Shown: piece by piece, positions 5,567 to 48,836 of the stretch
Layout: each line of letters begins with the position of its first letter
Numbering within the stretch: position 1 is the stretch's first letter
Origin: Actinomycetes bacterium
GTDB taxonomy: Bacteria > Actinomycetota > Acidimicrobiia > Acidimicrobiales > Acidimicrobiaceae
Assembly (NCBI GenBank): GCA_021841935.1
Contig: JAKCDL010000008.1
Location: 1-64,000, forward strand
Direction: 5' to 3'
DNA: 64,000 bases
The notes under the pieces: generated by a model
What the model saw: only the letters and a program-made list of their open reading frames with translations
The model's database searches: none
Told to the model about the DNA's origin: nothing
Made by a program: the position numbers and the translations under genes

Positions 5567-5642
5567 TCAAATTTGAGCTGGAAACGACTACCCGCCGCAA
5601 TGCAACAGCCTATTATTTTGAAATAAGTTGAGGTTGTTTCAA

Positions 5643-5948
5643 ATGTCAGGACTTGAATTGGGTTTAGATACGATCACAAAGCCAGATGTATCGACCTCCG
5701 ATGAGGTCGATCTAGATCGAGATTGGCGTGTTGTTGTATGGAATGACCCAATAAATCTGATCTCATACGTCATTTACGTTCTTCGACTTACATTTGGTTA
5801 CTCCCTCGCCAAGGCGACGGAACTTACAATGGAAGTGCACAACAACGGTAGGTCTATAGTGTCGTCAGGTCCCCGCGAAAAAGCAGAAGTAGAGGCACAC
5901 ACACTGCACGGATACGGACTTTGGGCAACTTTGGAAAGAGATACGTAA
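5643..5948 (+). CDS. clpS: ATP-dependent Clp protease adaptor ClpS
   Basis: A 101-residue adaptor that delivers N-end-rule substrates to ClpAP/ClpCP. The core WRVVVWNDPINLISYVIYVL is the ClpS signature, with the NDP motif that contacts the substrate N-terminal residue, and the C-terminal region (GPREKAEVEAHTLHGYGL) also fits. A ~25-residue flexible N-terminus precedes the core. I chose ATG 5643 because GAGG at 5630-5633 lies nine bases upstream; an in-frame TTG at 5628 would place the ribosome site inside the gene. The DUF2017 gene follows 22 bases later, a common actinobacterial pairing. Confidence 0.94.
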   Translation: MSGLELGLDTITKPDVSTSDEVDLDRDWRVVVWNDPINLISYVIYVLRLTFGYSLAKATELTMEVHNNGRSIVSSGPREKAEVEAHTLHGYGLWATLERDT

Positions 5949-5970
5949 TCTTAGGTGTTATAGGTTGTTG

Positions 5971-6450
5971 ATGAGCAGAAGACACGGACCAATCGGAAGG
6001 CTAGGGCCAAACCTATTCGAAAATCGTCTCGAAGAGGCCGAGGTTGAACTGTTGAGCATTCTTCCAGATGTTGTAAGCGAGGCGATGGAGATGAACTCTC
6101 CGTATGTCGCACGACTATTTCCTCCTACGTACCCATTCGAGCCAGAAAGCCAAAAAGAGTTTGACTCTCTAATAGGAGAATCTCTCATTGAACGCCATCG
6201 AGGTCTGCTGAGTGGGTTCACATCAACGTTAAGACAAAAGCACCTTAATCACAATGATCTTGCTACTTGGGTCGGGGCAATAAATGACATCCGATTAGTG
6301 CTCGGAAGCGCATTGGAAGTCTTCGAGGGCATGGAAGATCCAGACGAGTCGGATCCTCAATTTCAGGACTACATGATTTACAACTACCTATCATGGCTTC
6401 AGGGATCGATCCTGGACTTTTTATCGGAGCAATTTTCAGACCAACAATGA
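5971..6450 (+). CDS. DUF2017 family protein
   Basis: A protein of about 159 residues, acidic and mostly helical by composition, recognised as the DUF2017 family that often follows clpS in actinobacteria. The central region (RLFPPTYPFEPESQKEFDSL) and a C-terminal segment (YNYLSWLQGSILDFLS) look like its conserved parts. The function is unknown; the association with clpS suggests a role near Clp proteolysis, but that is inference. ATG 5971 is chosen; the in-frame TTG codons at 5965 and 5968 are alternatives with equally weak ribosome sites. The stop overlaps an out-of-frame ATG at 6447, and the next gene begins at 6457. Confidence 0.8.
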   Translation: MSRRHGPIGRLGPNLFENRLEEAEVELLSILPDVVSEAMEMNSPYVARLFPPTYPFEPESQKEFDSLIGESLIERHRGLLSGFTSTLRQKHLNHNDLATWVGAINDIRLVLGSALEVFEGMEDPDESDPQFQDYMIYNYLSWLQGSILDFLSEQFSDQQ

Positions 6451-6456
6451 TTCCCA

Positions 6457-8118
6457 ATGACGATCCAGTCAAAAGGACAAGCTTGGCAGCAGATTGCCAA
6501 TACGAAAGGAATTATTGACTTACCGATGCGCATCGATTCACTCAACGTAGGAATTATTTCAAACTCGAGCGATCGCTCCCTTTCATACTTTTGGCGGAGT
6601 CTCTTATCTGACGTGCAATCCATTACAACGGTCGAAAGATTTTCAAATTCACTCTCATTTGATCTTTTGATAGCCATTGACGCGCAAACCCTATCAGACG
6701 CAGAGATCGCCGAGATATCTAGTGCCAACATTCCTTCGGTCATCTTCCACTTCACCGAAGACGGCAGATTTACGGTAAACCAGAGAGAGTTAATACTCTG
6801 TGATCTAGGTAATGGAGAGTGGTTTTTAAAGGGACCTTCGAGTGAAACTCCGATCTTTTGTCGTCCGCTCTCTATAACCGGAGAAGTCCAATCAATCTTT
6901 ACGATTTCAAAGGGCCTAACGGATCTTACTATCGCAGGATCAATCGATGACCTCAAGTTCGTTGCATTTAGTAGCATTGACCTCAAAACGATTGATCGTC
7001 GAGCCCGAAACCTTCTGAGGGAGAATTTTCTCCCGTTCAGATCGAGAAGTTCGAACCCAGTCAGAGTAGCAATCGCGGGCTACGGCCCCTTCGGCGGAAT
7101 GGGACACTATCACGGCAGTGCAATTGAGGCGACGGATGGACTTGAATTAGTGGCAATCGCGGACCCCAGCGACGACCGTCAAAGATCAGCTAAGGTTCAA
7201 TTTCCTCAAGTTGCGACCTTCGCGACCGTTCAAAAGATGCTGACTGAAAGTGAATTCGAACTAATCATCATCGCTACTCCTCCTTCAACGCACTTCGAAC
7301 TAGCAAAAGCCTCTCTGGACGAGGGGAAGCACGTTGTCGTAGAAAAGCCAATGTGCCTTACGGTAGAAGAGGTGGATGAGCTTCAAGATATCGCGCTTTC
7401 AAAGGGCTTATCTTTAACTGTTCATCAAAATCGTAGATATGACCCGGACTTTTTGATGTTGCGCGAGATTATCGAAAGTGGTGAAGTTGGTGAAGTCTTT
7501 AATATAGAGACAACGGTGGGTACCTTCGAGCACCCATGTCGCGCATGGCACAGCGACGAGTCCATCTCAGGTGGAGCTGCTTACGATTGGGGCTCGCATC
7601 ACATCGACTGGATTCTGCAACTCTACGGGGAATCGCCAACCGAAATTTTTGCAACTTCCCACAAGAGAGTTTGGCACGATGTAACTAATGTAGACCAAAT
7701 GAAGATCGAAATGATCTTTGCAGATGGCCGAGAGGCAACGTTTATCCAAAGCGAGATATCTGCTCACCGCAAACCCAAATTTTATGTTCAAGGAACGAAA
7801 GGGACGATCGTTGGATGGTACCAACCGATCGTCGATAAGCAAATCTCCTTCCCCTTTGGCTACCAAGAATCTCATCATCACTTCGCCGAGGCTCCTGTGG
7901 ATCTCGAAGTAGCAAAGTACATTGGGGACAATCGAATCGTTACTCAAAAATATCGTCCAAAGTTCTCTGAGCCATTTGAATTTCACAGAAACATCGCAGC
8001 ACATCTACAATTTGGCGAAGAAATCGAAGTAAAGCTATCCCAGGTCCGCCGCGTTATTGGTGTTTTAGAGGAGTCGCAGCGAATCAGCACTTCCAAAGAA
8101 CACTTCTACAAGTTCTAA
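6457..8118 (+). CDS. Gfo/Idh/MocA oxidoreductase with ~200-residue N-terminal extension
   Basis: A 553-residue protein. Residues from about 203 onward form a standard Gfo/Idh/MocA dehydrogenase: a Rossmann nucleotide-binding motif (AIAGYGPFGGMGHYHG), the conserved EKP of VVVEKPMCL near residue 300, and a C-terminal domain with GGAAYDWGSHHIDW near residue 370, where the histidine is the likely catalytic or sugar-contacting residue. Members oxidise or reduce sugars, inositols or related carbonyls with NAD(P). The first ~200 residues are unusual for the family and I do not recognise them; they look globular (alternating strands and helices) rather than disordered. Starts are uncertain: ATG 6457 or ATG 6526, neither with a clear ribosome site. 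It is followed by a second family member 26 bases downstream. Confidence 0.82.
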   Translation: MTIQSKGQAWQQIANTKGIIDLPMRIDSLNVGIISNSSDRSLSYFWRSLLSDVQSITTVERFSNSLSFDLLIAIDAQTLSDAEIAEISSANIPSVIFHFTEDGRFTVNQRELILCDLGNGEWFLKGPSSETPIFCRPLSITGEVQSIFTISKGLTDLTIAGSIDDLKFVAFSSIDLKTIDRRARNLLRENFLPFRSRSSNPVRVAIAGYGPFGGMGHYHGSAIEATDGLELVAIADPSDDRQRSAKVQFPQVATFATVQKMLTESEFELIIIATPPSTHFELAKASLDEGKHVVVEKPMCLTVEEVDELQDIALSKGLSLTVHQNRRYDPDFLMLREIIESGEVGEVFNIETTVGTFEHPCRAWHSDESISGGAAYDWGSHHIDWILQLYGESPTEIFATSHKRVWHDVTNVDQMKIEMIFADGREATFIQSEISAHRKPKFYVQGTKGTIVGWYQPIVDKQISFPFGYQESHHHFAEAPVDLEVAKYIGDNRIVTQKYRPKFSEPFEFHRNIAAHLQFGEEIEVKLSQVRRVIGVLEESQRISTSKEHFYKF

Positions 8119-8144
8119 TTTCAACTTTAAGAAACGGATAACCA

Positions 8145-9101
8145 TTGAAACAAGTATCTTGGATAATTGCCGCAAGCGGATCTAGTATTGCAAATTCTGC
8201 CGTAATTCCAGCGATCCTTGCAACTGAAGGATCACAGATCATTGGCCACTGCTCACTGAGCCAGACACACGTCCCACTCGACGATTCCCCCGCAATCAGG
8301 TATCCAAGCTATGAAAAATTAATCAGAGAATCTGGAGCCGATGCACTCTATATTCCTTTGCCAAACAACTATCATCTCGATCTAATTCGACTTGCTGTGG
8401 AGTGTGGGGTCAATGTACTCTGCGAGAAGCCGCTCGCAATGAACGTCGAAGAGATCGATGAGATTATTAAGGTGGCGGAGGGGTCATCGGTCGTAGTTGA
8501 AGAAGCATACATGACTACACATTCGCTGCGTGACCAACGCCTTCGAGAGATAGCAAGACGCATTGGGTCGACTGAGGCCACGGCTCGTTTTACCTTCGAG
8601 AATCGCAACTTCGAAAATTATCGAATGGACCGCCGCTTCGGAGGTGGGGCCCTTCTAGACGTTGGAATTTACGTTCTCGATCCCATCATCGACCTCTTTG
8701 GCGAGCCTACAGGAATTGAGATAGTCAATTTCAAAGAAAGAAACGATACCGACATGGATCTAGAGGCGGTCTTAAAACACCCAGACGGTAAAACATCCCG
8801 AATTGTTACCTCATTTGTCCGCCCCGAAGAGCAGTTTCTTCAATTTTCGAATGGAAAAATGAAAATCTCGGCTGCGAGGCCATTCACACCATCCATCGAT
8901 GACGTGCAAATCGTGATCGAAGATAACGATGGATCTACCTCAACGGAGCTAGCCGAGGGTAACTACATATACCGTGCGATGGTAGAAGATTTCAACAGGG
9001 CGATCTCCACAGGAACTAGGCCGAGAAGGTCCTTGGAACAAAGCAGAAATGTTCAGCAGGTAATCGACGATATTTTCGAAGCCGCAAGGGCAATAAGTTA
9101 G
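8145..9101 (+). CDS. Gfo/Idh/MocA family oxidoreductase
   Basis: A 318-residue NAD(P)-dependent oxidoreductase of normal family length. The N-terminal fold begins IIAASGSSIANS, an atypical dinucleotide-binding loop (family members usually have GxGxxG, here ASGSSIAN). Then come YIPLPNNYH, the conserved EKP motif in VLCEKPLAMN, EEAYMTTH, and GGGALLDVGIY with the catalytic-region aspartate. It resembles the glucose-fructose oxidoreductase and trans-dihydrodiol dehydrogenase side of the family. TTG start at 8145. Its position directly after another family member and before a hydrolase suggests steps of one small-molecule pathway, whose substrate cannot be deduced. Confidence 0.84.
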   Translation: MKQVSWIIAASGSSIANSAVIPAILATEGSQIIGHCSLSQTHVPLDDSPAIRYPSYEKLIRESGADALYIPLPNNYHLDLIRLAVECGVNVLCEKPLAMNVEEIDEIIKVAEGSSVVVEEAYMTTHSLRDQRLREIARRIGSTEATARFTFENRNFENYRMDRRFGGGALLDVGIYVLDPIIDLFGEPTGIEIVNFKERNDTDMDLEAVLKHPDGKTSRIVTSFVRPEEQFLQFSNGKMKISAARPFTPSIDDVQIVIEDNDGSTSTELAEGNYIYRAMVEDFNRAISTGTRPRRSLEQSRNVQQVIDDIFEAARAIS

Positions 9102-9172
9102 ATTCCAAAGCAAAGGGGAAGCGGCTACGTGCTATGGGAATCTATATGGCGAAAACGGTGCTTTAACGACAT

Positions 9173-10024
9173 GTGAAAAATCATCTAGTAGAGGTCAGCG
9201 ACTCCGTTTCAATCGCAACCACCCGTCATGGTTCAAGCGAACCAGAAGTCGTTCTAGTCCATGGCTTAGCTTCCAATCGTCACATGTACGATCTTGTCGC
9301 TGAAGAACTCGAAGAGATGGGGATTTCGTCTCTTTCCTTAGACCAACGAGGCCACGGGGATAGTTCAAAACCAGATCAAGGCTATGACCACAAGACGCTA
9401 GCTAATGATGTAGCTACGGTAGTAAAAAGCTTCGGTAATTCACACCCAAAGGTAATGGTAGGTCAATCCTGGGGCGGGGCATTTGTTTCAGACTTTGCAA
9501 TCAACTTTCCCGACTTGGTAAGCGGGTTGGTACTTATCGATGGCGGCATCTTCGACCTAAAAGAACGCTTTGATTCATGGGATTCTGTTGCTAGGAATCT
9601 GGCCCCTCCGAAATTCAGTGGAGTGAAGTACGAAGATCTAGAGGAAAGAATTGCAAGTGGAGGTTGGACAGGTCGCCAACTCTCCTGCATTATGGAAAAC
9701 TTTGAAAACGTTGAAGGTGAAGCTCGTCCTCATCTCGTCTTCGAGAATCACATGAAGATCCTCAAGTCCCTCTACGAATATACGCCAAGTAGTACGCTTC
9801 CTTTTCTTTCTATTCCAAAATTAGCCTTGCTAGCGGACCGGGGAAATTCTCCCCTTGCGCAGTCGACCGACTTCGATGCGCAAATCGCAAAAATTTCTAG
9901 AGATCTATCGATTGAGATACGTGAAATCAACGGTGCACGCCACGATTTGCACCTGCAGTACCCAAAAATAACGGCCAATGCAATTCAAGAGATACTCCAA
10001 AGGATCAAGGGTAGCAATAAATGA
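9173..10024 (+). CDS. Alpha/beta-fold hydrolase
   Basis: A 283-residue hydrolase. Residues 28-33 (LVHGLA) give the oxyanion-hole HG motif, residues 57-63 contain DQRGHGDS, and the nucleophile elbow is GQSWGG with Ser99. The acid is probably the Asp of LIDGG or a later one, and the catalytic His lies in GARHDLH near the C-terminus. Such enzymes cleave esters, amides or C-C bonds of small molecules in the cytoplasm; there is no signal peptide. GTG start at 9173. Its TGA overlaps the ATG of the next gene as ATGA, so the two are translationally coupled and probably act together. Confidence 0.88.
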   Translation: MKNHLVEVSDSVSIATTRHGSSEPEVVLVHGLASNRHMYDLVAEELEEMGISSLSLDQRGHGDSSKPDQGYDHKTLANDVATVVKSFGNSHPKVMVGQSWGGAFVSDFAINFPDLVSGLVLIDGGIFDLKERFDSWDSVARNLAPPKFSGVKYEDLEERIASGGWTGRQLSCIMENFENVEGEARPHLVFENHMKILKSLYEYTPSSTLPFLSIPKLALLADRGNSPLAQSTDFDAQIAKISRDLSIEIREINGARHDLHLQYPKITANAIQEILQRIKGSNK

Positions 10025-11286
10025 CTAAAAAAATCGTCCTTCTCGGATCGGGTGAGACCGCACCCACGATGGTGAAAGTTCATAGGTCGATATTTAATGA
10101 GCTCATACAACCGCACAAAGCGATCATGCTTGATACTCCATTCGGGTTTCAAGCTAACGCCGAAGAAATATCTGCCAAGGCGGCTGACTACTTTCGTATT
10201 AGCATCAACGAAAAAATCGACACAGCATCGCTCAAGAACTTCGAAAAGGCTTCGGCATATGAAATCGAACGCTTCAGAGAGTTGGTAGCGTCATCAAATT
10301 ACATCTTCGCCGGACCAGGAAGTCCCACATATGCCCTTCGACAGTGGCTAAAGGTTGACCTAGCGTCTCTGCTTGCAAAGAAACTACAGAGTGATTTTGC
10401 TATAGTCTTTTCATCTGCTGCAGTCCTAACTCTAGGCAGATACACCATCCCGGTCTACGAAATATACAAGGTAGGGGAAGATCCTCGACTGCATGATGGC
10501 CTGGACTTCCTAGCGGCTATTGGCCTCAATGTACTTGTTATACCGCACTACAATAACCAAGAAGGCGGAAGCCACGACACGCGATACTGTTACATGGGGA
10601 AGGACCGACTCCCAATTCTTGAATCGCAGATGGAAGCTACGACTTCAATTCTCGGGATCGACGAGCACACCGGTTTGATAATTGACCTTGAGATTGATGA
10701 GGTGACCGTTGTCGGAATCGGAACAATAACAATTCGACGACACGGCAAAAGTTCCTCGTACCCGAGCGGCGAAACCTTCTCATTCAACGACTTTAAGGCG
10801 CTACTTTCCGGTGAAAACTCCTACGACTTCGCAGACATAGTTAGCTCCGACAAGAAAACGATCGTTACTAGCCATGACCAAGATGCGACAACGAGCCCGC
10901 TTCACACTTCTTTGGTCGAACTCGAAGAGGAATTCAACACCAGCTATTCAGAGAAAAACGCATCAAGGGCTCTCGATGCGATTCTCAAGATTGAAGATGT
11001 ACTTGAGCAATGGAGAGCCGATACCCTCCAATCCGACGACTTTGACTTCGGTAGATCTCTTCTTCGCAGTTGCATAGCACGCCTAGGAGAGTGGCTCGAA
11101 ATTGGCAGCGTCGACAAAAAATCAGTTATTGCTCCCTTTGTAGAGATTCTTATTGAGCTAAGAAAAACATTTCGGGACGAGCGTAGATTTTCAGATGCTG
11201 ACTTTTTGAGAGATAGCCTAACAAAGGCTGGTATTGAAGTACAAGATCAGTCTTCCGGTACATATTGGACACTTATCACAGGTTGA
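10021..11286 (+). CDS. S51/class I amidotransferase-like protein fused to a CysRS-like C-terminal domain
   Basis: A 421-residue protein with two parts. Residues 1-250 look like the peptidase S51/cyanophycinase-like branch of the glutamine amidotransferase fold: LLGSGE at the start, AGPGSP near residue 100, a nucleophile-type turn FSSAA (Ser131/132), HYNNQEGGSHDTRYC at 176-190, and IDEHTG at 213-218. Residues ~340-421 resemble the C-terminal anticodon-binding (DALR) domain of cysteinyl-tRNA synthetase: ELRKTFRDERRFSDADFLRD, then KAGIEVQD and GTYWTL, matching the typical R..kdF..AD.iRd.L...GI...D...GT.W pattern. The middle is acidic and probably a linker. The CysRS catalytic core is absent. The ATG overlaps the upstream hydrolase stop. 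Its function is unknown; a hydrolase acting on a tRNA- or thiol-linked substrate would be speculation. Confidence 0.75.
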   Translation: MTKKIVLLGSGETAPTMVKVHRSIFNELIQPHKAIMLDTPFGFQANAEEISAKAADYFRISINEKIDTASLKNFEKASAYEIERFRELVASSNYIFAGPGSPTYALRQWLKVDLASLLAKKLQSDFAIVFSSAAVLTLGRYTIPVYEIYKVGEDPRLHDGLDFLAAIGLNVLVIPHYNNQEGGSHDTRYCYMGKDRLPILESQMEATTSILGIDEHTGLIIDLEIDEVTVVGIGTITIRRHGKSSSYPSGETFSFNDFKALLSGENSYDFADIVSSDKKTIVTSHDQDATTSPLHTSLVELEEEFNTSYSEKNASRALDAILKIEDVLEQWRADTLQSDDFDFGRSLLRSCIARLGEWLEIGSVDKKSVIAPFVEILIELRKTFRDERRFSDADFLRDSLTKAGIEVQDQSSGTYWTLITG

Positions 11287-11345: not shown

Positions 11346-11418
11346 GCCCCCATCGTCTAGAGGCCTAGGACGTCGCCCTTTCACGGCGGTAACACGGGTT
11401 CGAATCCCGTTGGGGGTG
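11346..11418 (+). tRNA. tRNA-Glu (anticodon TTC)
   Basis: Cloverleaf of 73 bases: acceptor GCCCCCA pairs with TGGGGGT (one G-U at the end), D-arm TCTAGAGGCCTAGGA, anticodon loop CTTTCAC with anticodon TTC, and T-arm GTTCGAATC. CCA is not encoded (GCA follows). A TAGAAT sequence about 15-20 bases upstream could be the -10 element. Confidence 0.97.
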
Positions 11419-11420
11419 CA

Positions 11421-48714: not shown

Positions 48715-48812
48715 GGACACCCCGCCTTGTAGCTTACGCAACTACCAGCTCTTCCTTCAGGGGCACCGTTCTGCGGGAGCGGTTGCCAGTTTGCCAGCTG
48801 AAGGACTTTGGC
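48715..48812 (-). ncRNA. SAM-binding riboswitch, SAM-IV or SAM-I/IV-variant type
   Basis: On the reverse strand a 7-bp P1 helix (CCUUCAG at 48804-48798, CUGAAGG at 48760-48754) encloses the SAM core UGGCAACC...GGUGCCCC. P3 is ACCG/CGGU with a loop containing CCCGC (48777-48773). Its complement GCGGG (48725-48721) lies beyond a small hairpin (GUAG...CUAC, 48745-48729), giving the 3' pseudoknot expected of SAM-IV-like elements. It sits between a promoter (48837-48864) and metY, about 180-270 bases before its start. A possible competing hairpin (GGGGUG...CAUCCC) overlaps the pseudoknot strand and may be the switch. Confidence 0.8.
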
Positions 48813-48836
48813 AAACAATCTTGAGCTAAGACCAAT

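Follow-up and report, generated by a model that had tools for sequence, protein, structure and literature searches.

The first 64,000 nucleotides of contig JAKCDL010000008.1 (GenBank assembly GCA_021841935.1, Acidimicrobiaceae), referred to as a whole as the window, carry four co-directional genes on the forward strand at positions 6457-11286. The ORF list agrees with an initial annotation of the window in this arrangement and in the four bases (10021-10024) shared by the last two genes (ORFs 9173-10024 and 10021-11286). The two Gfo/Idh/MocA enzymes and the alpha/beta hydrolase (ABH) named there have their Pfam domains over the cut-off, with Abhydrolase_1 in the third gene. The same annotation regarded the genes as a metabolic set whose fourth member is an ordinary S51-like enzyme. 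This description is not supported as it stands, in that the tail of the fourth protein (its C-terminal third) corresponds to the complete tRNA-binding end of cysteinyl-tRNA synthetase (CysRS), with the anticodon-reading residues invariant. The protein, called the fusion below, looks like a CysRS in which the synthetase domain has been swapped for a serine hydrolase. The features of the set are as follows.

6457..8118, forward strand: Gfo1, Gfo/Idh/MocA dehydrogenase, 553 residues, Pfam over cut-off
8145..9101, forward strand: Gfo2, second Gfo/Idh/MocA dehydrogenase, 318 residues, Pfam over cut-off
9173..10024, forward strand: ABH, alpha/beta hydrolase, 283 residues, Pfam Abhydrolase_1
10021..11286, forward strand: S51-CysRS fusion, 421 residues
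10021..10806, forward strand: S51 domain (cyanophycinase/PepE-like) of the fusion, residues ~1-262
10894..11286, forward strand: predicted CysRS C-terminal region of the fusion (helix bundle and anticodon-binding domain), residues ~292-421

The sole Pfam match of the window fusion is to the CysRS C-terminal domain PF23493, with an expectation value (E) of 0.0014 that is under the cut-off; the NCBIfam CysRS models give 3e-6 and 2.3e-5. A profile was made from 44 members, the window protein and 43 of 47 copies, leaving out L027 (a near-duplicate), L040 and L043 (at contig ends) and L088 (with an in-frame stop). Residues ~300-421 of this profile match the C-terminal part of CysRS, with 8qhp at 4.9e-12 and the E. 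coli enzyme (1li5/1u0b) at 5.4e-12, and the CysRS matches of the tail comprise five distinct sequences of several species (E 4.9e-12 to 8.1e-6). Comparison of the tail with CysRS 1u0b in VIA-align gave a modest match (Z 8.3, 115 residues aligned, root-mean-square deviation 15.8 A over two domains); the predicted homology to CysRS is founded on the sequence profile, not on the structure match. No class I synthetase domain was found in the fusion, the matches being confined to the C-terminal positions of the CysRS models, and the domain order is that of CysRS with the S51 domain occupying the place of the synthetase domain.

In the E. coli complex, G34 of tRNA-Cys is held by hydrogen bonds from Arg427 and Asp436 and by stacking of Trp432, with Arg423 in a water network, as described in an extract of PMC12684709. 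These residues map onto the fusion as R423 to R381, R427 to R385, W432 to F390 and D436 to D394. All 44 family members have R381, R385 and D394, and position 390 is aromatic in 44/44 (F in 19, W in 13, Y in 12). Only six positions within residues 300-417 are invariant, namely R381, R385, D394, R397, D409 and W416. For comparison, 20 of the full-length CysRS found in the same order were aligned and used in a tree. Among these authentic enzymes R427 is kept in 18/20 (K in the other 2), D436 in 20/20, the aromatic residue in 20/20 and R423 in 19/20; only 3/20 have W where the fusion has W416. By these counts, the predicted G34-reading residues are at least as conserved in the fusion as in the working synthetases of the order, and it is likely that the tail binds tRNA-Cys. 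The fused tail domain forms one clade against CysRS (SH-aLRT, the Shimodaira-Hasegawa-like approximate likelihood-ratio test, 99), which is compatible with one fusion event.

The S51-like character assigned to the fourth gene at the outset was borne out by profile search, in which the S51 part matches 6nqc, a 'cyanophycinase-like exopeptidase' (E 5.8e-12), and by structure comparison; it was not borne out by Pfam, which gives no S51 match to the window protein at E<=1. The NCBIfam cyanophycinase model scores 13.4 bits against a cut-off of 126.6, and no curated S51 model tried recognises the protein. With the 44-member profile of the whole fusion, residues 4-255 match 6nqc at 5.5e-10. The AlphaFold model of the fusion (mean pLDDT, the predicted local distance difference test, 87.9; pTM, the predicted template modelling score, 0.74) consists of an S51 domain and, beyond a low-confidence linker at ~268-289, a helix bundle followed by a small C-terminal domain. 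In VIA-align it matches 6nqc with Z 24.3 (231 aligned, 2.9 A) and cyanophycinase 3en0 with Z 22.9 (233 aligned, 3.1 A). Two residues present in 44/44, S132 and H176, correspond to the CSAGA Ser and the IPHFNK His of 6nqc and are likely to be the S51 nucleophile and catalytic His, respectively. E147, H185, D186 and C190 are also invariant (44/44). The last three sit in a family-specific insert by the active site, partly low-confidence in the model (181-185), and the sequence around the active-site His has the conserved form HYNNxEGGxHDTRxCYxG.

It is conceivable that the tail no longer binds tRNA-Cys and has become a domain for dimerisation, for regulation or for other nucleic acids, attached to an ordinary S51 peptidase, which would work with the ABH on a peptide containing Cys or Asp. 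The S51 members known are peptidases, the S51 domain of the fusion matches peptidases, and the helix bundle is similar to other bundles of helices as well. However, the invariant residues of the tail include those that read G34 and are not core residues, and a fold kept for structure only should not retain them in 44/44. We regard this explanation as unlikely.

A separate CysRS of full length is found in most carriers of the fusion, sister genome G001 among them, and for this reason the idea that the fusion is half of a split CysRS was rejected. The window genome (G000) has only a 375-residue CysRS-like protein that lacks the C-terminal domain, and its sole CysRS C-terminal match is the fusion. 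Since sister carriers of the fusion possess a full-length CysRS, its absence from G000 is most likely an assembly gap, which fits the 86.6% completeness of this genome. The gene of the 375-residue CysRS/MshC-like protein, on another contig (L185, 4866-5993), scores over the cysS cut-off and under the MshC cut-off and, by eye, lies between an F420-type NADPH reductase-like gene and an HIT-like gene. Almost every member of the order that was searched has a short CysRS paralogue, whether or not it carries the fusion, and the paralogue is therefore not specific to fusion carriers; a specific link of the fusion to the mycothiol ligase MshC was rejected on this ground.

The three partner proteins retain the signature residues of their families. 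In Gfo1 the dehydrogenase part (~195/200-553) stands behind a poorly conserved N-terminal extension of ~195 residues. Its EKP at 296-298, D377 and H381 are kept in 19/19 aligned sequences (the window and 18 of 20 copies, without the truncated genes of L026 and L050), and residues ~195-553 of its model match YvaA with Z 34.1 (317 aligned, 2.3 A). The structure-search list for Gfo1 was filled by matches to the dehydrogenase domain; by eye, the extension is a candidate for a ThuA-like origin. The Gfo1 proteins of L123 and L129 have no extension and, by eye, retain the family signature residues. The nearest solved relatives of Gfo2 are a sugar 3-ketoreductase (3rbv, E 2.1e-61 in a PDB profile search) and enzymes of the glucose-fructose oxidoreductase type, and its EKP at 94-96, D172 and Y176 are kept in 18/18 (the window and 17 of 20 copies, without L022, L027 and L040). 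In the ABH, S99, D123 and H257 are kept in 27/27 (the window and 26 of 30 copies, without L027, L043, L049 and L051).

The genomes searched for the fusion were mostly metagenome-assembled. It is present in 28 of the 41 closest genomes (30 match in the search, G036 and G040 through their own CysRS only) and in 23 of 296 genomes sampled across the phylum (107 match, the other 84 via CysRS-type tails only), and GTDB contigs contain genes for at least 547 relatives. One cultured species, Rhizocola hellebori (L182), has a homologue. Neighbourhoods were counted in three sets of loci, which overlap in some genomes (for example, L103 and L021 are both from G001); the counts cover loci with enough flank, contig-end neighbourhoods being set aside. 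An ABH gene lies directly upstream on the same strand in 19/24 loci of relatives, 7/20 of the phylum sample and 64/73 of the named loci nearest the window. Gfo1 and Gfo2 are both within 6.5 kb of the fusion in 14/21, 3/18 and 15/55, respectively, and ClpS or DUF2017 is upstream in 19/21, 1/17 and 18/51. Among 26 loci in which the gap between ABH and fusion genes was measured, 15 have a gap of -4, so that the four-base overlap is recurrent, and none has a gap of more than 32 bases. On a tree of 119 fusion proteins (midpoint-rooted for drawing only), ABH adjacency spans most branches, and the ClpS context characterises the window's family along with part of one other group.

Gene order in relatives, on which the initial annotation had made its proposal of a linked, conserved set with no nameable pathway depend, persists across most members of the window's family. 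With the recurrence of the overlap, this makes the set more than a chance association, and the proposal is supported. As regards the four genes as one set, the linkage does recur, the Gfo pair accompanying the fusion within the window's family and forming a cassette with it in other lineages; however, the dehydrogenase pair is not obligatory. The ABH is the most constant partner of the fusion, and the two form the core.

The immediate neighbours of the set are the following.

5628..5948, forward strand: ClpS, Pfam; lineage-level neighbour
5965..6450, forward strand: DUF2017, Pfam; lineage-level neighbour
11346..11419, forward strand: tRNA-Glu(ttc), starting 60 bases past the fusion gene

The same-strand genes upstream encode an ABC ATPase and a permease (both named by eye), CtaA, ClpS and DUF2017. 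Downstream of the fusion, between 11346 and 12240, tRNA-Glu(ttc) is followed by tRNA-Asp and tRNA-Phe genes. A SAM-IV riboswitch (Rfam) was found far from the four-gene set, at 48718-48826 on the reverse strand. In the f51 genomes a COG1579-type zinc-ribbon-like gene lies just upstream of the fusion (L094 ~8333-9085; L095 10263-12172), preceded in L095 by a Nif3-like gene; these were identified by eye.

Such neighbours raise the question of whether the four genes form a functional set at all, or are held together by lineage synteny between clpS-DUF2017 upstream and tRNA-Glu downstream. The tRNA-Glu gene is directly 3' to the fusion in 24 of 27 loci of the order, including lineages without the ABH and the dehydrogenases; clpS or DUF2017 is upstream in the 19 of 21 loci of relatives given above; and linkage to a metal importer, described below, is restricted to one clade. 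Against this, the four-gene cassette stands away from both clpS and tRNA-Glu in G140, G194 and G253, the last from outside the window's class. The fusion of G253 groups with that of G194, a member of the window's order, and not with the other genomes of its own family (f36), which suggests that the cassette was transferred between lineages. Synteny as the whole explanation thus appears very improbable. The adjacency of clpS and DUF2017 itself looks like lineage synteny, in line with the original suggestion that it may be incidental, as other families, and one genome outside the class, have the cassette but no clpS with it. The position of tRNA-Glu, being conserved in the order, is a genomic anchor rather than a clue to the substrate.

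Our proposal, to which we give an even chance, is that the product of the last gene is a serine hydrolase or acyl transferase directed at tRNA-Cys, with the layout of CysRS and an S51 domain in the place of the synthetase. The C-terminal domain would hold tRNA-Cys via its GCA anticodon, as CysRS does, and the flexible linker (~263-292) would bring the S51 domain to the acceptor end. There, Ser132 with His176 would attack the acyl group on the 3' end, leading to its hydrolysis or transfer; action of the fusion at the acyl end of tRNA-Cys is plausible. The ABH, from the overlapping upstream gene, would work in the same process, and the Gfo pair, where present, would provide a partner molecule resembling a sugar or cyclitol, or modify it. 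These roles of the ABH and the dehydrogenases are weakly suggested. Anticodon domains provide specificity in several editing systems, according to an extract of PMC11295145. The presence of the Gfo pair and the ABH favours synthesis, and their absence elsewhere favours clearance, as in editing or rescue.

Several points weigh against this proposal. S51 enzymes are known as peptidases and are not known to act as aminoacyl-ester hydrolases, nor is any need for editing known for CysRS. A tRNA-Cys gene was sought beside the fusion in the loci examined (including 60 of the 100 loci L083-L182), and tRNA-Glu, tRNA-Asp and tRNA-Phe were found instead; where a tRNA gene adjoins the fusion, it is tRNA-Glu. 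No T-box or other regulatory RNA was detected near the operon at the gathering threshold in the window and four loci, nor any metal- or Cys-responsive element. Finally, the fusion occurs without ABH or Gfo neighbours in an outlying group of eight rows on the tree and in three f51 genomes; the partners are therefore dispensable.

The fusion might also be a housekeeping, trans-editing factor that clears wrong, oxidised or blocked aminoacyl groups from tRNA-Cys, the ABH and dehydrogenases being merely co-located. Its architecture resembles that of archaeal ThrRS-ed, which consists of a hydrolytic domain and an anticodon-binding domain with no synthetase domain, as outlined in extracts of PMC9976931 and PMC11295145. 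Like ThrRS-ed, the fusion coexists with a normal synthetase, whereas its hydrolase is of the S51 type, unrelated to the editing domains of aminoacyl-tRNA synthetases, and its predicted tRNA is that for Cys. The full-length CysRS of most carriers, which makes the fusion an extra tRNA-Cys protein, and the several lineages that carry it without Gfo or ABH would agree with this role. However, the ABH adjacency with its recurrent four-base overlap and the behaviour of Gfo1-Gfo2-ABH-fusion as a cassette argue for a shared pathway, and mischarging by CysRS is not known to be frequent enough for editing to be required. We consider such a role to have a rather low probability.

Two or more components of a ZnuABC-type importer lie within 8.5 kb of the fusion in 0/17 loci of relatives, 4/18 of the phylum sample and 26/45 of the named loci. 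Among L083-L182, the importer flanks the fusion in, for example, L107, L123, L129 and L152. It is composed of PF01297, PF00950 and ABC_tran, and its binding protein is nearest to the zinc AztC and manganese MntC models, all under the cut-off. Every ZnuABC-linked row falls in one clade of 58 rows (SH-aLRT 93), in which the placement of the Gfo pair varies: it is upstream of the ABH in some loci, beyond ZnuA in L123, L129, L140 and L173, in one apparent operon Gfo1-Gfo2-ZnuA-ZnuC-ZnuB, and divergent from ZnuA in L152. In the window genome, a znuA-type gene is found elsewhere, in a row of genes that also includes ABC components and a Fur-family regulator. A Fur-family regulator gene in L160 (2783-3238, reverse strand) is divergent from the fusion gene. 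An actinobacterial Zur consensus was searched upstream of ABH, Gfo1 and ZnuA in the wider family's loci, other than the window itself, and scored no better than in random stretches. The importer link is suggestive; being confined to one clade, its instances are not independent, and it is therefore treated as a lead only, with no claim of zinc regulation. Any connection of the set with zinc or thiols is inferred. On this lead, the cassette could carry out a tRNA-dependent biosynthesis: cysteine would pass from Cys-tRNA-Cys to the fusion, which would hold it as an acyl-serine intermediate and, with the ABH, transfer it to a sugar or cyclitol made by the dehydrogenases. The end product, a thiol containing cysteine, would bind zinc or a similar metal and serve as a ZnuABC-linked metallophore or metal buffer, fed by a tRNA of translation. 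We put this forward as a long shot.

In relation to known proteins, the fusion has a helix bundle and an anticodon-binding domain homologous to those of CysRS, along with the same predicted G34-reading residues, but no synthetase domain, and a separate full-length CysRS accompanies it in most carriers. With cyanophycinase, PepE and 6nqc it shares the fold and the positions of Ser and His; it differs in falling under the curated S51 and cyanophycinase models tried and in carrying both the HYNNxEGGxHDTRxCYxG insert and a CysRS tail. The order's short CysRS paralogues, like MshC, are also derived from CysRS and additional to it, but they have kept the synthetase domain and are missing the C-terminal domain, an arrangement opposite to that of the fusion. 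The open-licence PubMed Central literature yielded no paper describing a fusion of S51 with CysRS, a weak indication as an absence.

The carriers belong to a little-known group of actinobacteria, in which a conserved gene set ends in the fusion. The family is widespread, with its at least 547 relatives, yet lies under every curated model tried. If the proposal of a tRNA-Cys-directed enzyme is true, a serine hydrolase mounted on a scaffold that binds tRNA-Cys would offer a new means of addressing chemistry to one tRNA, and the fusion would represent an editing-type factor acting on tRNA-Cys or else a new extra-translational use of Cys-tRNA-Cys.

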